A DNA stretch of 64,000 nucleotides from Paenibacillaceae bacterium GAS479. GTDB taxonomy: Bacteria > Bacillota > Bacilli > Paenibacillales > Paenibacillaceae. The position numbers and the translations under genes are program-made. The DNA lies in NCBI GenBank assembly GCA_900105225.1, contig LT629764.1:4422501-4486500 (forward strand), in the 5' to 3' direction. The notes under the pieces are model-generated. The model was given only the letters and a program-made list of their open reading frames with translations, was not told where the DNA came from and made no database searches. This document shows, one piece after another, positions 15,614-59,835 of the stretch; position 1 is the stretch's first letter; each line of letters starts with the position of its first letter.

Positions 15614-17911
15614 ATGGCAAATAATCCGATACAAAGCAATACCGTTAAGCGAATCAAAATGAGGACCGTTGTTGTCGGAGGGTTGATTACCCTCCTTTTT
15701 CTTATTTTGATCAGTCGAGTCTTCTACGTGCAGGTCGTGCAGGCAGATTTCTGGCTCAGCGAAGCCAAAGCAATCTGGAAGGAACAGGATACGATCCCGG
15801 CGGAGCGCGGTACGATCAGTGATCGCAAAGGAAATATGCTCGCCATGAACATCCCGGCTTATACCGTCGTGGTTAATCCTAAGCTGCTTAATGAGCTTGG
15901 AATCGCGGAAGAAGCAGCCAAGGGACTTGCCAAGCTGCTTGGCAAATCGGAGCAGGAAGTACTCAAACAGGCGACAATGAAAAACAGCAAAGGTGATTTT
16001 TTGCAGTACCGGGAGCTTCGCCCGGAAGGATGGAATATCGTTAAAGCCAAGGCGGACGAGGTGATTGCGTTCCGGGCCGGTCTCAAGAAAAGTTATGAGG
16101 ATCGGACGTACAAAAAGATCCGTGACACGGGCATTACACTGAATGAAGGCTCCAAGCGTTTTTATCCAAATAATTCGCTCGCAGCTCATGTTCTGGGGTA
16201 TGTGAACAAGGAAGGCGCTCCTGTTATCGGGCTTGAAGCCGACTTTAATAAACAATTGGAGGGGCAGGACGGCAAAATCGTTTATGAAAAGGACGGCAAC
16301 CGCGTTCAGCTCGCTAACGGCAATGCCCAACTGGTTCCAGCTGTGGACGGAAGTGACATCCAGCTGACGCTGGATTCGGAAATTCAGAACTACTTGGAAG
16401 TAGCGATGAAAAAGGCCTACGAAAAATACGAGCCGCTCAGCATTACCGCCATCGCTGCCGACCCCAATACGATGGAAATTCTGGCTATGGGCAATATGCC
16501 GACCTATAACCCAAATGAGTACTCCAAATCCAATGTAGGCAGCTTCTTCAACCATGCTGTTGGATCGGGTTACGAGCCGGGCTCGACGTTCAAAATCATA
16601 ACGTTGGCAAGTGCCGTTGAGGAAGGCAAGTTCAACCCTAATGCTATGTATAAGTCAGGATCAATTATGGTTACAGGCTCACGAATTCGTGACGTCAATC
16701 GTGCTGGTTGGGGCACAATCACTTATTTGGAAGGGCTCAAGCGCTCCAGTAACGTTTCTTTTGTAAAGCTTGGATTGGAGCAGTTGGGCAAAGAGAAGCT
16801 TATTAATTATTTTGAAAACTTTGGATTCGGCAAGCGGACGGGCGTCGAGCTGAAAAACGAAGCCAAAGGTATATTGAACATTAATTATCCGTACGAAGTG
16901 GCGACTTCTACATTTGGACAAGGCCCTCTTGCTGTCACGCCGATTCAGCAGATCGCCGCGGTTGCCGCGGTAGCAAACGGCGGCAAGTTGATGAAGCCGC
17001 ATATCATCAAATCCATTAAAGATCCAGCTACCGGCAAGGTGACGGAGACGAAGCCGGAGATGGTGCGGCAGGTTATCAGCGCCGAAACTTCTCGCAAAGT
17101 TGGCGGCTATTTGGAGCAGGTTGTCTCTGACCAGGAAATAGGCAGTGGCCGTAACGCCGCGATTGCTGGATACCGGGTCGCCGGCAAAACCGGTACAGCG
17201 GAGAAATTCATCGGTAAAGGATACTCAAAGAATGAATATATCGTTTCCTTCATTGGTTACGCGCCGGTGGAAAATCCGAAAATCGTCGTTTATGTCATTG
17301 TCGACTCGCCAAACAACCCAATGGTCGGGGGCGGAACGGTTGCTGCTCCGGTGTTCAAAGAAATTGTCAGCCAGAGCCTGCGCTATATGGGCGTGAAGCC
17401 TGACGCCAAGGCCGTTGAGGATGGGGGCAAGCAAGGCACGCAGACCGTTCCTGATCTGAAGAATAAAGGAATCCAGGAAGCACAATCCGAGCTCAAGTCT
17501 CGCGGCATGGCGTCCAAGGTAGTCGGTAAGGGAACGAAGGTGCTGCTGCAGATTCCGGCAGCCGGGGCGGTATTGGCCGAGAGCCAACAGGTCTATCTTT
17601 TGACGGAGGAGCAGAGCAAGCTCGCCTTGCCTTCGCTAGTCGGCTTGTCGCTTCGCGATGCTCTGCAAGTTTGCTCTTCGACGGGCAAACGCTGCGTGAC
17701 CGAGGGAGATGGTTACGTCGTGAAGCAGACGGATGCGAAGCTGAATGGCGAGCCAGTTGTGAAGCTGACTCTGCAGTCGCCGAGTGAACAGCAAGCGGCG
17801 AAAGACGCTGCGATGGACGCTGCGAAGGATGCGGACAAGAACGGCAATAAGAGTACAGACACGGAAGCGGACACGGTTACTGATGTAGAGCAGAACCAGG
17901 ATACTGAGTAG
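15614..17911 (+). CDS. pbpB: Septal penicillin-binding protein 2B with PASTA domains
   Basis: 765 residues, class B transpeptidase that crosslinks septal peptidoglycan. Membrane anchor at ~18-40, dimerisation domain, then transpeptidase motifs: S324 in GSTFK, S378-S379-N380 (SxN), K525 in GKTGTAEK. Two PASTA repeats follow (TVPDLKNKGI; ALPSLVGLSLR). The end is a charged Asp/Lys/Thr tail encoded by an in-phase 18-base repeat; the repeat continues past the TAG stop, so the tail looks cut short by a nonsense change. Slightly longer than B. subtilis PBP2B. Followed by a 3.4 kb repeat island instead of directly by spoVD. Confidence 0.96.
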   Translation: MANNPIQSNTVKRIKMRTVVVGGLITLLFLILISRVFYVQVVQADFWLSEAKAIWKEQDTIPAERGTISDRKGNMLAMNIPAYTVVVNPKLLNELGIAEEAAKGLAKLLGKSEQEVLKQATMKNSKGDFLQYRELRPEGWNIVKAKADEVIAFRAGLKKSYEDRTYKKIRDTGITLNEGSKRFYPNNSLAAHVLGYVNKEGAPVIGLEADFNKQLEGQDGKIVYEKDGNRVQLANGNAQLVPAVDGSDIQLTLDSEIQNYLEVAMKKAYEKYEPLSITAIAADPNTMEILAMGNMPTYNPNEYSKSNVGSFFNHAVGSGYEPGSTFKIITLASAVEEGKFNPNAMYKSGSIMVTGSRIRDVNRAGWGTITYLEGLKRSSNVSFVKLGLEQLGKEKLINYFENFGFGKRTGVELKNEAKGILNINYPYEVATSTFGQGPLAVTPIQQIAAVAAVANGGKLMKPHIIKSIKDPATGKVTETKPEMVRQVISAETSRKVGGYLEQVVSDQEIGSGRNAAIAGYRVAGKTGTAEKFIGKGYSKNEYIVSFIGYAPVENPKIVVYVIVDSPNNPMVGGGTVAAPVFKEIVSQSLRYMGVKPDAKAVEDGGKQGTQTVPDLKNKGIQEAQSELKSRGMASKVVGKGTKVLLQIPAAGAVLAESQQVYLLTEEQSKLALPSLVGLSLRDALQVCSSTGKRCVTEGDGYVVKQTDAKLNGEPVVKLTLQSPSEQQAAKDAAMDAAKDADKNGNKSTDTEADTVTDVEQNQDTE

Positions 17912-18013
17912 AACCGGGATATAGAGTAGAACCAGGATACAGAGCAGAACCAGGATACAGAGCAGAACCAGGATACAGAGCAGAACCGGGATACAGAGCA
18001 GACTAGGGCACAG
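17888..18013 (+). repeat. 18-bp in-frame tandem repeat across the pbpB stop codon
   Basis: Six good copies of an 18-base unit (GAG CAG AAC CAG GAT ACA) start at 17888, 17906, 17924, 17942, 17960 and 17978, with a decayed seventh at 17996. The first encodes the last residues of PBP2B. Two units carry TAG in place of CAG (17909 and 17927); without them the pbpB frame would run on to TAA at 18032. Confidence 0.92.
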
Positions 18014-19224
18014 ATTAGGATCAGAGCAGTTTAATCCAACTGCATTGCGCTGACCGACGGGACACTAACCGCTGCGCGGAACGGACCCTCCTTCCGATTC
18101 ACTGGAGCCCAGATTCCTTTGATTCCAAAACCCCTGTCGGGGTAGGAATCCGGCCTCCAAGAGAACCGCTGCCGCTTCTCCAGGAGGGTTCCGTCCGCTC
18201 CGCTTCCCGGTCCCGTAAAAAACTCGTCTCCCCCCCCTATTTTTAGGGGGGGCGGCTCGCTCCAGCTTCGCTCCCGGAGCCCGCTGTACCCGCGCTTCAC
18301 GCGGTGGTGGTGCTTCGGCCTGCGGATCCCTGCTACGTAGGCGGGCCCGCCAAAGAGTGAGAGAAATGTAATGAGTAGCTATTGAGTAGAACCGGGATAC
18401 AGAGCAGAACCAGGATACAGAGCAGACTAGGGCACAGATTAGGATCAGAGCAGTTTAATCCAACTGCATTGCGCTGACCGACGGGACACTAACCGCTGCG
18501 CGGAACGGACCCTCCTTCCGATTCACTGGAGCCCAGATTCCTTTGATTCCAAAACCCCTGTCGGGGTAGGAATCCGGCCTCCAAGAGAACCGCTGCCGCT
18601 TCTCCAGGAGGGTTCCGTCCGCTCCGCTTCCCGGTCCCGTAAAAAACTCGTCTCCCCCCTATTTTTAGGGGGCGGCTCGCTCCAGCTTCGCTCCCGGAGC
18701 CCGCCGTACCCGCGCCTCACGCGGTGGTGGTGCTTCGGCCTGCGGATCCCTGCTACGTAGGCGGGCCCGCCAAAGAGCGAGAGAAATGTAATGAGTAGCT
18801 ATTGAGTAGAACCGGGATACAGAGCAGAACCAGGATACAGAGCAGACTAGGGCACAGATTAGGATCAGAGCAGTTTAATCCAACTGCATTGCGCTGACCG
18901 ACGGGACACTAACCGCTGCGCGGAACGGACCCTCCTTCCGATTCACTGGAGCCCAGATTCCTTTGATTCCAAAACCCCTGTCGGGGTAGGAATCCGGCCT
19001 CCAAGAGAACCGCTGCCGCTTCTCCAGGAGGGTTCCGTCCGCTCCGCTTCCCGGTCCCGTAAAAAACCCGTCTCCCCCCCTATTTTTAGGGGGGGGCGGC
19101 TCGCTCCAGCTTCGCTCCCGGAGCCCGCCGTACCCGCGCTTCACGCGGTGGTGGTGCTTCGGCCTGCGGATCCCTGCTACGTAAGCGGGCCCGCCAAAGA
19201 GCGAGAGAAATGTAATGAGTAGCT
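17957..19224. repeat. Three tandem ~420-bp repeats (array A), each with a 105-nt hairpin
   Basis: Copies at 17957-18380, 18381-18800 and 18801-19224, almost identical. Each begins with pbpB-tail 18-base units, so the array grew in place. Each contains a 105-nt hairpin read on the minus strand (18085-18189, 18509-18613, 18929-19033): outer stem ACCCTCCT/AGGAGGGT, inner stem GGAGGCCGGATTCC/GGAATCTGGGCTCC. It also has a C-run/TAAAAATA/G-run hairpin and a GGCGGGCCCGCC palindrome (third copy has one change beside it). The ~89-codon minus-strand open frames inside are repeat by-products. Confidence 0.93.
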
Positions 19225-19274
19225 AAGTAGTTAGGAATGGCCTAACTCTCACGGAGCAGTAGAGTAGCTCACAA

Positions 19275-19608
19275 GCAGCGGTAGAGCAGCTTAGCCCGCA
19301 AGGAGCAACAGCTTTAATTTACATGCAACAGTAGAGCAGCTTAGCCCGCAAGGAGCAACAGTTTTAATTTACACGCAACAGTAGAGTGGATTAGCCCGCA
19401 AGGAGCAACAGCTTTAATTTACATGCAACAGTAGAGTAGCTTAGCTCGCAAGGAGCAACAACTTTAATTTACATGCAACAGTAGAGCAGCTTAGCCTGCA
19501 AGGAGCAACAGCTTTAATTTACACGCAACAGTAGAGTGGATTAGCCCGCAAGGAGCAACAACTTTAATTTACACGCAACAGTAGAGTGGATTAGCCTGCA
19601 TAAAGCAC
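19275..19608. repeat. 50-bp tandem repeat, about 6.7 copies
   Basis: Unit GCAACAGTAGAGCAGCTTAG plus 30 more bases, starting at 19275, 19325, 19375, 19425, 19475, 19525 and 19575, exactly 50 apart, with a few base differences per copy. No spacers, so not CRISPR. It separates the minus-oriented array A from the plus-oriented array C. Confidence 0.92.
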
Positions 19609-19920
19609 TGGTTTACCTCACAAGCAGTAGCCTTCGTGGTAGCTCGCTCCGGCGCATACCCTCAAATAGCTTGTGAGAGCCGAATACTGTAACTAACCGG
19701 GCTTTTGAATATTTGAAAGCCTGTAGAGCGTAACTGCGAGGGCCAAGTACCTCTCTTAAGATTTTGGGAGCATTGGGCCCTGGCACACTTGCTTAGCTCG
19801 GGAACTGTACATGTCCAGCTTGGAGCGGCGCTCCGAAGCAGGTACTCGCTAAGCTCGAGCAGAGCAACTGCGCGAGCTGGGCAGGAGCATCCAGCGCCGG
19901 CACGCCAGCCGCGCCAAGCG
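19609..19920. other. Non-coding spacer in the repeat island
   Basis: About 310 bases with several small palindromes (for example GGAGCGGCGCTCC near 19831) but no recognisable gene, promoter or known RNA. Confidence 0.5.
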
Positions 19921-21262
19921 GCCTGCCGCCTTCCAGGTGTTCGGAAGGCGGCACACACCCAATAAAAAATGGGGGGATAGGAGAGGCGGTCCATGGGAGG
20001 GACTGCGACGATGAAGCGGAGCGGGCCGAAGCCTTCCGTAGAAGCGGGAGCGGTCCTCTTGGAAGTCGGATGCCTACACTTTAGTGTGATAGGCAATCAG
20101 GGCATCCGAGTTCCAGAGGGATCGGAGGAAGGCTCGGTTCGTGCAGCGGCGTTCCGTTACAGCCACTCACATAACCCCCGCCGCGCCAAGCGGCCTGCCG
20201 CCTTCCAGGTGTTCGGAAGGCGGCACACCCAATAAAAAATGGGGGGATAGGAGAGGCGGTCCATGGGAGCGGCTGCGACGGTGAAGCGAAGCGGGCCGAA
20301 GCCTTCCGTAGAAGCGGGAGCGTTCCTCTTGGAAGTCGGATGCCTACACATTAGTGTGTTAAGCGATCAGGGCATCCGAGTTCCAGAGGGATCGGAGGAA
20401 GGCTCGGCCCGCGCAGCGGAGTTCCGTTACAGCCACTCACATAACCCCCGCCGCGCTAAGCGGCCTGCCGCCTTCCAGGTGTTCGGAAGGCGCAACACCC
20501 CCAATAAAAAAATGGGGGGATAGGAGGGGTCGGTCCATGGGAGCGGCTGCGACGGTGAAGCGGAGCGGGCCGAAGCCTTCCGTAGAAGCGATAGCGTTCC
20601 TCTTGGAAGTCGGATGCCTACACTTTAGTGTGATAGGCAATCAGGGCATCCGAGTTCCAGAGGGATCGGAGGAAGGCTCGGTTCGTGCAGCGGCGTTCCG
20701 TTACAGCCACTCACATAACCCCCGCCGCGCTAAGCGGCCTGCCGCCTTCCAGGTGTTCGGAAGGCGCAACACCCCCCAATAAAAAATAGGGGGGTAGGAG
20801 GGGGCGGTCCATGGGAGGGACTGCGACGGTGAAGCGGAGCGGGCCGAAGCCTTCCGTAGAAGCGATAGCGGTCCTCTTGGAAGTTGGATGCCTACACATT
20901 AATGTGATAGGTAATCAGGGCATCCGAGTTCCAGAGGGATCGGAGGAAGGCTCGGCCCGCGCAGCGGAGTTCCGTTACAGCCACTCACATAACCCCCGCC
21001 GCGCCAAGCGGCCTGCCGTCTTCCAGGTGTTCGGAAGGCGGCACAACCCCCCAAAAAAAATGGGGGATAGGAGAGTCGGTCCATGGGAGAGGTTGTGACG
21101 GTGCAGTGGAGCGGGCCGAAGCCTTCCGTAGAAGCGGAAGCGGTCCTCTTGGAAGTCGGATGCCTACACATTAGTGTGTTAGGCGATCCGGGCATCCGAG
21201 TTCCAGAGGGATCGGAGGAAGGCTCGGTCCGCGCAGCGGAGTTCCGTTACAGCCCCTCACAT
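19921..21262 (+). repeat. Five tandem ~272-bp repeats (array C), each with a 105-nt hairpin
   Basis: Period 270-274. Each unit holds, in order, a perfect hairpin GCCGCCTTCC-N8-GGAAGGCGGC (first at 19925-19952; copy five has one change), a C-run/AATAAAAAAT/G-run hairpin, then GAAGCGGAGCGG and a 105-nt hairpin at 20030-20134, 20300-20404, 20574-20678, 20848-20952 and 21120-21224. Outer stem AGCCTTCC/GGAAGGCT; inner stem GGAAGTCGGATGCC/GGCATCCGAGTTCC; loop with ACACT..AGTGT-type palindrome. The hairpin is homologous to that of array A but its stems differ by paired changes. Open frames of 80-95 codons in these units share the repeat periodicity and lack good support as genes. Confidence 0.93.
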
Positions 21263-21378
21263 AACCTCCCATAAGCTCACATAGCGCGTTCTACCAACGA
21301 GCGTTTCCGAATAGGGTAAACATGTACGGACAGACTCTACCTGTCCACCCTAGAACGAAGCGAGAGGGGAACAAGCGG

Positions 21379-23337
21379 ATGAAAGTGTCCAATGTCACCT
21401 TGCGCCGCCGTCTGTTCTTGGCGCTAGTCGTTGTCATCATCGGCTTCAGTGCGCTGATCGTACGGCTGGCCTACGTACAGCTGGTAAGAGGCGGTGAGCT
21501 GTCCGCCAAAGCGGAGGACAATTGGCGCCGCGAGGTTGCTTTTGCTCCCCGGAGGGGCGATATTACGGACCGCAACGGCGAAAAGCTCGCTTATAACGTG
21601 AGCTCACCGACAATCGTGGCGATTCCGGTCCAGATCAAGGACAAGGAAGGAACCGCCCGCAAGCTGGCGCCCGTGCTTGGCATTTCCGAAGAGAAGCTGC
21701 TCGGCTTGCTCAAAAAGAGAGAGAGTAGCGTTTTTATCAAACCGGAAGGCCGCAAAATTACGCTGGAAAAGGCGATGGAAGTTCGCAAGCTGGAATTGCC
21801 GGGCATTGTTGTGGCGGAGGACAACAAGCGTTACTACCCGTTCGGTGAACTGGCAGCGAGCATCATCGGTATTACAGGTACAGATGCTGGATTAACCGGC
21901 GTGGAGAAAAAGTATGACGACCGTCTGAAAGGTGTCAGAGGCAGCGTATCCTATTTATCAGACGCCAGCGGGCATACGATGCCAGGCTCGACCGATAAGC
22001 TCGATGAGCCGAAGGATGGATTGAATTTGGAGTTGACGATTGATCGGCAAATTCAAAGCATCATGGAGCGCGAGCTGGACCAGGCGATGACCAAGTACAA
22101 GCCGAACAACGCCATCGCCATCGCGATGGACCCCAATACCGGCGAGGTGCTCGGCATGGCGAGCCGTCCGACGTTTGAGCCAGGCAACTACAACGCGTAT
22201 CCATCCGAGGTGTATAACCGCATTTTGCCAATCTGGATGACCTATGAGCCAGGTTCTACTTTCAAGATCATCACGCTGGCAGCAGCGCTGGAAGAGGGCA
22301 AGGTTAATCTTAAGAATGAGCGGTTCTTCGACCCAGGTGCAGTAGAGATCGGCGGCGCGCGGTTGCGCTGTTGGAAAAAGGGCGGCCACGGCAGCCAAAC
22401 GTTCCTGGAAGTCGTGCAAAATTCATGCAACCCGGGCTTTGTTGCGCTTGGCAATCGGCTTGGCAAAGACACGCTATTCAAGTATATTAAGGACTTCGGC
22501 TTCGGCAAGAAAACCGGTATCGACATCAGCGGCGAGGAGAATGGAATTCTGTTCAAACCAAGCCAGGTCGGCCCGGTAGAGCTGGCGACAACGGCCTTTG
22601 GGCAAGGTGTCTCGGTAACGCCGATCCAACAGATCACGGCGGTGTCGGCGGCGGTTAACGGCGGTACGCTTTACAAGCCGCATTTGACCAAGGCATGGAC
22701 CAATCCAGAAACGGGCGAGGTTGTGGAGCGGATTGAGCCGGAACCTGTGCGTCAGGTCATTTCAGAGAAAACGAGCGCCCAAGTAAGGGAAGCGCTGGAG
22801 AGCGTCGTGGCGCTTGGCACGGGTGGCAATGCCTTTCTTGACGGCTATCGCGTCGGAGGTAAAACGGGGACGGCTCAAAAGGTCATTAACGGCAGATATT
22901 CCGCGAGTGAGCATATCGTTTCGTTCATTGGCATCGCACCTGCCGACAATCCACGCATCGTTGTATATGTAGCAATCGACAACCCGCAGGGCATCCAGTT
23001 CGGCGGCGTTGTTGCGGCTCCGATTGTAAAAGGAATTTTGGAAGATTCGCTGCAATATATGGGCGTGCCCAAGAGCTCCAAACAAATCGGCAAAAAATAC
23101 AAGTACGGTGAAACGACGATGGTGACGGTGCCGAATCTCGTCGGCAAGACGGTATCGGACATTTACGAGGACATGAACACGAACTTCAATCTTGCCTCCG
23201 CCGGCAGCGGCAATACGGTTATCCGCCAAGCCCCGGCAGCGGGAGAGCGGGTGGATAAAGGGTCGACGATCCGCATCTATTTAGGAAGCGACGCCGACTT
23301 GCCGCCTGCAGCAAGTGGAGATGGACACAACCATTAA
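21379..23337 (+). CDS. spoVD: Stage V sporulation protein D, spore-cortex transpeptidase
   Basis: 652 residues. Class B penicillin-binding protein that works with SpoVE to make spore cortex in the mother cell. N-terminal membrane segment (residues ~10-32), catalytic S293 in GSTFK, SCN at 349-351, KTGT from K495, and a single C-terminal PASTA domain (TVPNLVGKTVSDI). Start ATG 21379 chosen for GAGAGGGGA upstream; the open frame upstream to 21322 lacks a ribosome site. Distinguished from PBP2B by one PASTA domain and position before murE. Its promoter must lie in or past the repeat island, or transcription must cross the island. Confidence 0.95.
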   Translation: MKVSNVTLRRRLFLALVVVIIGFSALIVRLAYVQLVRGGELSAKAEDNWRREVAFAPRRGDITDRNGEKLAYNVSSPTIVAIPVQIKDKEGTARKLAPVLGISEEKLLGLLKKRESSVFIKPEGRKITLEKAMEVRKLELPGIVVAEDNKRYYPFGELAASIIGITGTDAGLTGVEKKYDDRLKGVRGSVSYLSDASGHTMPGSTDKLDEPKDGLNLELTIDRQIQSIMERELDQAMTKYKPNNAIAIAMDPNTGEVLGMASRPTFEPGNYNAYPSEVYNRILPIWMTYEPGSTFKIITLAAALEEGKVNLKNERFFDPGAVEIGGARLRCWKKGGHGSQTFLEVVQNSCNPGFVALGNRLGKDTLFKYIKDFGFGKKTGIDISGEENGILFKPSQVGPVELATTAFGQGVSVTPIQQITAVSAAVNGGTLYKPHLTKAWTNPETGEVVERIEPEPVRQVISEKTSAQVREALESVVALGTGGNAFLDGYRVGGKTGTAQKVINGRYSASEHIVSFIGIAPADNPRIVVYVAIDNPQGIQFGGVVAAPIVKGILEDSLQYMGVPKSSKQIGKKYKYGETTMVTVPNLVGKTVSDIYEDMNTNFNLASAGSGNTVIRQAPAAGERVDKGSTIRIYLGSDADLPPAASGDGHNH

Positions 23338-58153: not shown

Positions 58154-58212
58154 TTTCCGCGAGCTAGTAGAGTGGATTTGAGAGCTGGTGCGGAACTTCG
58201 CTGCAGGAGCCG

Positions 58213-58317
58213 ATCCTTTCTCCGATCCCTCTGGAAGTCGGATGCCCTGATCGCCTAACACACTAAAGTGTAGGCATCCGACTTCCAAGAGGACCGCTAC
58301 CGCTTCTCCGAAAGGAT
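58213..58317 (-). repeat. 105-nt hairpin, C subfamily, minus strand
   Basis: Same length and layout as the array C hairpins. Read on the minus strand, the outer stem is ATCCTTTC/GAAAGGAT in place of AGCCTTCC/GGAAGGCT, both arms changed together; the inner stem is perfect (GGAAGTCGGATGCC / GGCATCCGACTTCC). Upstream on that strand are the CCCC-AATAAAAAAAC-AGGGG and GCCGCCTTT..AAAGGCG hairpins (58367-58410). Confidence 0.88.
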
Positions 58318-58499
58318 TCGTCTCCCTCCGCTTCGCCGCACAAGCTCTCATAGGCGTCTCTCACCCCTGTTTTTTTATTGGGGTGGGGGGCGCCTTTAGC
58401 ATACGTAAAAGGCGGCAGGCCGCTTGGCGCGGCGGGTGGTGCGACGCTCAATGGAGCAACTGCACCAACTGAAACTGTAATTGCTCCTGGAACTGAACT

Positions 58500-58632
58500 G
58501 AACTGGACCGGATTGGATTGGATTGGATTGGAACTGGATTGGAACTGGATTGGAACTGGAACTGGAACTGGAACTGGAACTGGAACTGGAACTGGAACTG
58601 GAACTGCATCCGCATCCGCATCCGCATCCGCG
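58500..58632. repeat. GGATT / GGAACT / CATCCG short tandem repeats
   Basis: Runs of GGATT, then about ten GGAACT hexamers, then CATCCG hexamers. Long frames on both strands read as Gly-Thr, Asn-Trp or Gln-Phe repeats and are not credible proteins. Confidence 0.92.
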
Positions 58633-58801: not shown

Positions 58802-59131
58802 ATGGGCGAAGATAGTCGAAGGGATACGATCAGCGAGCGGGAGCAAATTAGCTTTCTGCAAGACCGGCTAGAGAAAATAGCCGCCGATCTGGAAAAATCG
58901 CAGATGGCGGAGTATGTGGAACTTCTAAACCGACCGTTCTCGCTGATCTGGCGCAATCTGATGGTCGGCATTTCCAGAGGCATCGGTTCCGTGATCGGGT
59001 TAGCTTTTTTTACAACGGCAATTTTATATATACTGCAAGCTCTTGGGCAGCTCAATTTGCCGATTATTGGCGATTATATTGCGGATATTGTGAGAATCGT
59101 GCAAATTCAGCTGGACGGCAAGCAATATTGA
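58802..59131 (+). CDS. Small membrane protein, DUF5665-like
   Basis: 109 residues. Charged N-terminal helix (DRLEKIAADLEKSQMAEYVELL), RPFSLIWRNLMVGISRGIGSVIG, one membrane segment (LAFFTTAILYILQALGQL), and short tail. Matches my memory of DUF5665 proteins of Firmicutes; function unknown. Ribosome site GGAGGAAAA. Lies between repeat elements. Confidence 0.85.
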   Translation: MGEDSRRDTISEREQISFLQDRLEKIAADLEKSQMAEYVELLNRPFSLIWRNLMVGISRGIGSVIGLAFFTTAILYILQALGQLNLPIIGDYIADIVRIVQIQLDGKQY

Positions 59132-59270: not shown

Positions 59271-59290
59271 AACGTCACTGCTTGAACTGA

Positions 59291-59325
59291 GCCTTTCTTC
59301 GATCCCTCTGAAAGCTGGATGCCCT
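59291..59325 (-). repeat. Half-copy of the C-type hairpin
   Basis: GCCTTTCTTCGATCCCTCTG onward matches one arm of the hairpin at 58213 (ATCCTTTCTCCGATCCCTCTG region), then the similarity ends. A decayed remnant. Confidence 0.65.
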
Positions 59326-59601
59326 CGCGGTTGATATGCACGATTAGCTATGCGGTACACAACGCTATAAGCGACGTGATAGAGAAATTAATCGTTTGAG
59401 AGGCCGAGCCATTGTTTCTATAGAAACATGCAGATCAAAGTTTAAATCAGCCGAGATGTACGTGGCTGAAGGGAAAGGCTGTTCGCCGAGCGAAAGCTCG
59501 GTAAATAGCGAAGCTTCAAAGGCGAAGCCGAAGATGAGCCACCCCCTATAAAAAAAGGGGGGGATGCAGGGTTTTCAGGACAGTGAAGCGAAGCGGACGG
59601 A

Positions 59602-59704
59602 ACCCTCCTGTAGAAGCGGCAGCGGTTCACTTGGAGGCCGGATTCCTACCCTAAACGGGTATGGAATCAAAGGAATCTGGGCTCCAGAGAATCGGAAGGA
59701 GGGT
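59602..59704 (+). repeat. 103-nt hairpin, A subfamily, plus strand
   Basis: Outer stem ACCCTCCT/AGGAGGGT and inner GGAGGCCGGATTCC/GGAATCTGGGCTCC, as in array A; terminal loop stem TACCC/GGGTA where array A has ACCCC/GGGGT. Preceded by CCCCC-TATAAAAAAA-GGGGGGG (about 59542-59565) and GAAGCGAAGCGG. Confidence 0.88.
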
Positions 59705-59835
59705 CTGTCCGCGAAGCTGTATTTGTCCTGAATAGTAGGAGGGTCTGTCCGCGAAGCGGCATTTGTCCTGAAATGTAAGGGCCTGTCCGCGAAGCTGTAT
59801 TTGTCCTGAAATGTAAGGATCTGTCTCCGAAGCAA
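59697..59835. repeat. 38-40-bp tandem repeat, about 3.5 copies
   Basis: CTGTCCGCGAAGC begins at 59705, 59745 and 59783, with a variant at 59821; followed in each by ATTTGTCCTGAA. Starts inside the 3' arm of the A-type hairpin, so it grew from it. Confidence 0.88.

Follow-up and report, generated by a model that had tools for sequence, protein, structure and literature searches.

The window, a stretch of 64,000 nucleotides from Paenibacillaceae bacterium GAS479, carries ten copies of a hairpin that was originally predicted, from the letters alone, to be 105 nt long and possibly an undescribed structured RNA or DNA element. This raises the question of what kind of element it is, whether its fold is maintained by selection and how it came to be repeated. 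The analysis below showed the repeat to be real, strongly selected, mobile and structured, and REP/MITE-like in its behaviour.

Hairpin copies in the window and layout of the fold

All ten predicted copies were found (Table 1). A search with the motif AGAAGCGGNAGCGG, allowing up to two mismatches, gave 16 matches in the window, these ten included, against 2.46 expected, and none of 100 shuffles reached 16. Four copies are on the minus strand, namely those at 18085, 18509 and 18929 (A-type) and the one at 58213; the remaining six are on the plus strand. The stems, compensated pairs and retained G-G mismatch that had been described were all seen in the window copies. The predicted length of 105 nt fell short: the hairpin is present but extends to approximately 137 nt with an outer helix and an internal loop, and to approximately 170–230 nt (outer limit set by eye) with a further helix of free sequence, P0. 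AGAAGCGGNAGCGG was constant as proposed but not wholly unpaired, as a 2-bp mini-hairpin lies inside it.

Table 1. Positions in the window of the hairpin copies, tandem repeats and neighbouring genes
Feature	Position	Strand	Basis
Penicillin-binding-protein gene	15614-17911		has transpeptidase and PASTA domains; top NCBIfam match (spoVD_pbp) scores below cut-off
Tandem amplification, 3 x ~420 bp, one A-type hairpin per unit	17960..19225		repeat comparison
A-type hairpin copy 1 (137-position core)	18068..18205	-	covariance model, 142.4 bits
C-run / A-T loop / G-run hairpin, example	18230..18252		by eye
A-type hairpin copy 2	18492..18629	-	covariance model, 142.4 bits
A-type hairpin copy 3	18912..19049	-	covariance model, 142.4 bits
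50-bp tandem repeats between A (-) and C (+) hairpins	19281..19600		repeat comparison
Tandem amplification, 5 x about 272-274 bp, one C-type hairpin per unit	19908..21266		repeat comparison
C-type hairpin copy 1	20014..20150	+	covariance model, 154.5 bits
C-type hairpin copy 2	20284..20420	+	covariance model, 157.3 bits
C-type hairpin copy 3	20558..20694	+	covariance model, 152.2 bits
C-type hairpin copy 4	20832..20968	+	covariance model, 159.5 bits
C-type hairpin copy 5	21104..21240	+	covariance model, 154.2 bits
spoVD	21322-23337		NCBIfam match above cut-off
C-type hairpin, ileS / DUF5665 gene interval, left member of divergent pair	58197..58333	-	covariance model
DUF5665 gene, between ileS and yteA-family gene	58802-59131		domain match
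A-type hairpin, DUF5665 gene / yteA-family gene interval, right member of divergent pair	59586..59720	+	covariance model

Read on the strand carrying AGAAGCG, the element has P0 as its outermost part, complementary and free in sequence (by eye; 16 bp in L063 and also visible in L104 and L106). Inside P0 is an internal loop, AGCGGAG/GCAGCGG, followed by helices of free sequence. The junction bears a mini-hairpin, GC-GNNA-GC or sometimes GC-GNA-GC or AC-GNA-GT. After it come a semi-constant helix, CGTTCGCCTTTG/CAACAGCGATCGGA, in which mismatches recur, then a helix of free sequence and finally a tip that varies. The layout of the core is that of a three-way junction with conserved internal loops. 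Among 127 copies the mini-hairpin loop was GNYA in 83, GNRA in 20 and GNA in 15, and 9 were unmatched. The sequence of the outermost helix differs between subfamilies, and the fold is common to the genera of the alignment, with differing stem sequences. AAGCGG is the consensus of PriA/primosome assembly sites; this consensus did not turn up in the accessible portions of the open-access literature. A reading of the element as a cluster of Chi sites (5′-AGCGG in B. subtilis according to the accessible part of PMC4824097) was rejected, as AGCGG is too poorly conserved across the 127 copies: 78 have it within their first 14 nt, 61 within their last 14 nt and 20 as a double loop motif.

The interval between the penicillin-binding-protein gene and spoVD holds three A-type copies (-) and five C-type copies (+), each set forming one tandem block. 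As eight of the ten copies thus belong to two tandem amplifications, the ten do not represent ten independent insertions. In G003 the same site holds three copies, one A-type and two C-type. A hairpin made of a C-run, an A-T loop and a G-run accompanies many copies of the window genus on their 5′ (interior) side, though not every copy; L006, for example, lacks it.

Further repeats accompany the hairpins. Tandem repeats of 18 bp (AGAGCAGAACCAGGATAC) run from the 3′-end of the penicillin-binding-protein gene into the hairpin array (17887–18002) and recur within the 420-bp units. The stretch separating the C-type hairpin from the DUF5665 gene contains 6-bp repeats (58529–58631; TGGAAC x13 and GCATCC x4). 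At 59285–59323, near the A-type copy at 59586, half a C-type copy consisting of the right arm was seen by eye on the reverse strand, with no model match; it is apparently a decayed insertion. Tandem repeats of 38 bp at 59700–59833 duplicate the 3′ arm and tail of the adjoining A-type hairpin, and copies in L072 and L074 are bordered by outer repeats of a similar kind. The interiors of several divergent pairs in congeners contain arrays of approximately 51–52 bp with a sequence other than that of the window's 50-bp repeats. Those in L071, L074 and L084 are built on GTTACGCGGAAAAACCGAGTAAC variants common to unlinked loci, and BLAST located arrays of 51–52-bp repeats inside several other divergent pairs of G001 and G005. 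Head-to-tail hairpin arrays with exact spacing were observed at 151 nt in Paenibacillus sp. NEAU-GSW1 (L357, 3157–3740) and at 177 nt in Paenibacillus baekrokdamisoli (designated G181; L129, L130).

Covariation and the strand that folds

An alignment of 127 distinct sequences from the window's own family and named relatives, which was fitted to the covariance model and leans towards it, had 91.0% paired cells compared to 69.6% when shuffled. The covariation score was 0.543, against 0.171 for shuffled alignments and 0.06–0.11 with slid partners. Double changes were found in 38 of the 43 pairs (shuffled mean 34.6; equalled in 4 of 500 shuffles). A simplified R-scape-like test, whose null preserves the tree as well as how many changes each column has undergone (60 simulations; E<0.05), returned 13 significant pairs out of 9180 column pairs, of which 12 belong to the 43 structure pairs. 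The thirteenth (columns 74-256) is off-structure and lies in the same helix, between two structure pairs. Absence of covariation above phylogenetic expectation had been set beforehand as the refuting outcome; by this simplified test it was present in 12 of the 43 stem pairs, with which the shuffle counts agree, and the original reading of an element selected for folding is therefore supported.

Comparison of seven orthologous copies in G000 and G003 revealed changes at 18 of 594 paired positions, 10 of which break the pair and 8 of which keep a standard pair, and at 31 of 354 unpaired positions. In four further comparisons of copies taken as orthologous, 12 pairs were changed and kept and 11 were changed and unpaired; two more such comparisons showed no change at paired positions. 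As 10 of the 18 in-place changes break pairs, much of the selection may act on the copies that spread rather than on every resident copy.

The alignments also indicated which strand folds. Over all pairs there were 264 G·T against 44 A·C (alignment A3), and in columns that were at least 80% Watson-Crick there were 101 G·T against 29 A·C cells (alignment A4), with 23 of these columns having more G·T, five more A·C and five tied (p=0.0009). This excess of G·T identifies the AGAAGCG strand as the folded one. When two copies were folded on both strands, the AGAAGCG strand had the lower z-score with DNA and RNA parameters alike. The tetraloop usual in RNA is GNRA, and in DNA d(GCGAAGC) forms a mini-hairpin of unusual stability; d(GCGAAGC) co-occurs with DNA mini-hairpin terms in the accessible portions of the literature. 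In window copies folded on the given strand, the mini-hairpin was predicted in four of four with DNA parameters and in one of four with RNA parameters. The loop types together with this prediction slightly favour DNA, and a bias towards the sense strand (see below) fits RNA as well as lagging-strand template DNA. The folded molecule would thus be single-stranded DNA slightly before RNA, in a judgement close to even.

Distribution and mobility

A covariance model (R1) was built from 11 copies. At E≤0.001 it gave at least 36 matches in the window's own genome, and all eight genus genomes, this one included, carried the repeat with at least 27–64 matches each, counts that are lower bounds because 150 candidates were scored per genome. 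Family-wide, matches were found in 230 of 295 genomes and 13 of 19 genera, and order-wide in 208 of 296 genomes and 26 of 48 genera; the two genome sets overlap, with many genomes in both, and 11 candidates were scored per genome. Among the matches listed, those outside the window's own family fall in families f6 and f4. The number of matches per genome was 147 in G181, 79 in G222, 59 in G268 and 11 in G149. A pattern scan of named genomes found at least 119 stretches, 118 of them in Paenibacillus, Saccharibacillus, Gorillibacterium or Fontibacillus. A single exact match to the core pattern in Pseudanabaena biceps (L362), which had no covariance-model match, is either chance or contamination. 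The copies examined sit between open reading frames.

At the gathering score Rfam gave no match in the window or in four loci of other genomes, and at a loose threshold it gave four matches in the window, all below their cut-offs and none credible. No earlier description of the hairpin was found in the accessible portions of the open-access literature, subscription papers being outside its reach, and within these bounds the term 'undescribed' in the original prediction holds. The repeat is common in a large group of bacteria and apparently uncatalogued. Viral contigs had no match to the core pattern, plasmids had none to one C-type query and phages had none to one A-type query. Carriage by phages or plasmids was rejected on these queries.

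Mobility, on which the original prediction was silent, was seen in P. baekrokdamisoli, where the hairpin forms the core of a MITE. At L121, between genes that we take to be ribH and scpA, G181 has a hairpin copy that 21 of 21 congeners lack: the site measures 295 bp in G181 and 34–130 bp in the congeners, whose compared stretch holds no hairpin. The main G181 family has inverted ends of about 25 bp, GGCTCTAAACC.../GGCTCAACACT..., and the terminal-repeat pattern matched 46 times in this genome. In 29 of the 30 loci inspected, the terminal repeat and the core motif start 64–68 nt apart, the repeat coming first. The remaining locus (L382) has a terminal repeat directly followed by GAGCC and no hairpin core, and has the appearance of a G181 MITE that lost its interior by deletion. 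Among 23 copies with both ends visible, chosen and bordered by eye, 8-bp target duplications were perfect in five and matched at 7 or more of the 8 positions in nine. The mean match was 5.2 compared to 3.0 for shuffled partners, none of 20,000 shuffles was as good, and of the lengths from 5 to 10 only 8 stood out. L383, outside these 23, has another perfect 8-bp duplication. The G181 family therefore has the terminal inverted repeats and target duplications that define MITEs. Other G181 copies carry the same core beside different flanks, (T)AAGTTGAACT.... In the window genus there is only the outer complementary helix with ends that are not fixed; the MITE ends and the target duplications were established for the G181 family.

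Occupancy of the window's two sites varies within the genus. By the model (E≤0.001), the penicillin-binding-protein gene/spoVD site is occupied in three of eight genomes (G000, G003 and G006) and the ileS-yteA site in two of eight (G000 and G003), the ileS-yteA stretch of the other genus genomes having no model hairpin. One further weak match (27 bits) in L228 is elsewhere within its locus. A composite element carrying the DUF5665 gene was considered for the ileS pair and rejected because the DUF5665-gene stretch also lies between ileS and yteA in other genus genomes.

Neighbouring copies less than 2.5 kb apart in G000, G001, G005 and G181 were, among the matches listed, divergent (-+) in 31 cases, (++) in nine, (--) in six and convergent (+-) in none; for four of these pairs the strands were taken from BLAST. 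Loci of other genomes added more divergent pairs and also two cases of convergent neighbours (L255 and L305). The spacing in both is approximately 1.12 kb, and they probably represent a single locus present in two related species. Orientation relative to the replichore was inconsistent (G000 p=0.04, G001 p=1, G181 p=0.03), its direction hinging on an unlocated origin.

The families searched for a mobilising enzyme, Y1 and ISL3, yielded none. The Y1 transposase domain PF01797 was present in three of 13 genomes (G002, G003 and G237) and absent from G000, G001, G005, G181, G268, G222 and G149, which have 11–147 repeat matches each. ISL3 was absent from G000, G001 and G005 and was present in G181 only as a broken relic, which shares nothing with the MITE terminal repeat beyond GGCTCT. 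Being absent or broken in the four genomes searched, ISL3 was rejected as the mobiliser.

Explanations of the repeat and comparison with known systems

Probably, the repeat is a non-autonomous REP/MITE-like mobile element whose long hairpin is recognised as one folded single strand. Spreading would depend on the core, whose structure a protein would bind, and in at least one lineage a DDE-type transposase would act on the terminal helix. Divergent pairs may have arisen by insertion near an older copy, and the tandem blocks by local replication slippage. Against this explanation, a folded core should be superfluous for a DDE transposase, the families searched yielded no mobilising enzyme, and in-place changes often break pairs. 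A related and unlikely proposal places the mobility signal in the folded core itself: the three-way junction with its GNNA/GNA mini-hairpin would be the single-stranded DNA recognition structure of an undescribed Paenibacillales system that depends on single-stranded DNA, inserts as divergent pairs and can be carried by MITEs with differing ends.

It is doubtful, if still to be taken seriously, that the hairpin is a structured RNA with a host function, such as processing, stability or insulation in untranslated regions, carried incidentally by mobile elements. The fold is strand-specific, in-place change is lower at paired than at unpaired positions, and single copies show a bias in their gene contexts. 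Among 51 singles from G181 (of 52 loci, one having no motif match) and 40 others, with genes taken as the longest open frames, the folded strand coincided with the sense strand in 33 of the 45 co-directional contexts (G181 19/24, others 14/21; p=0.0025), and convergent gene contexts were favoured over divergent ones (21 vs 5). A sense count relative to the upstream gene (35 vs 8) was inflated by convergent contexts and was replaced by the co-directional count. Outside G181, however, the bias is weak (14 vs 7, p=0.19, in a set that includes the four mutually orthologous copies L087, L090, L098 and L101), more than half of the in-place changes at paired positions break the pair, the loops are chiefly GNYA rather than GNRA, and occupancy of the two sites is not conserved within the genus. 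An improbable alternative is a boundary element beside transcription terminators; the divergent pairs would be accounted for if its 5′ side is turned towards the terminator. Terminator-like hairpins were seen by eye in several of 16 folded pair interiors, and outside G181 (n=37) hairpins were stronger in the 5′ flank than on the 3′ side (p=0.001) or in control windows (p=0.008). No flank effect was found in G181 (n=50), however, and scanning this genome for terminators showed no clear enrichment (12, 17, 12 and 9 of 51 compared to 18 and 15 of 93 control windows).

Two explanations fared worse. Template switching between the arms of a quasi-palindrome, which the original prediction had named as its alternative, makes paired changes without selection, and the proneness of the element and its flanks to tandem duplication is a sign of replication errors at hairpins. 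As a duplex-DNA process, however, it should not favour G·T over A·C, and it should erase the constant asymmetric loops and mismatches, which are instead kept across genera. Predicting neither, it is very improbable. Movement of the copies as REP/BIME repeats by a REP-associated Y1 transposase would account for an intergenic, multi-copy repeat in inverted pairs with a GTAG/GGAG-like tetranucleotide in the junction. It is scarcely credible given that PF01797 was lacking in seven genomes with copies and that the element is several times longer than REPs, which are 20–40 bp according to the accessible part of PMC3733652.

The repeat is a case of unusually clean structural covariation within a mobile element. 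It offers a system for studying the reasons for which a mobile repeat holds on to its fold but not to its ends, the nature of the folded molecule (RNA or DNA) and the origin of the almost exclusively divergent arrangement of adjacent copies. The covariance model would additionally let annotators mark regions of the hairpin repeat.

The ends of MITEs are typically their conserved part, whereas the hairpin repeat conserves its core and varies at its ends. Prokaryotic MITEs (Correia/NEMIS, ERIC, RUP and BOX) have terminal repeats, target duplications and stable stem-loop transcripts, as described in the accessible part of PMC10969869, and the G181 family fits this description. The repeat is like the REP/BIME-RAYT system in consisting of intergenic palindromes in alternating orientation; it differs in its length of approximately 137–230 nt, its conserved internal loops and three-way junction, and the absence of Y1 from those seven genomes. 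The bcr1-type repeats of the Bacillus cereus group, in the accessible part of PMC6542083, are approximately 100–400 bp, mostly chromosomal, associated with a TTTAT motif and confined to one species group, with features of mobile elements and a mean of 39 and up to 130 copies per strain. They are like the hairpin repeat in length, copy number and mobile features, whereas matches to the hairpin repeat span an order and one of its lineages has terminal repeats and 8-bp duplications, the two having been compared by description. The hairpin repeat resembles both the REP/BIME and the bcr1/MITE repeats, but its conserved fold is far more elaborate.
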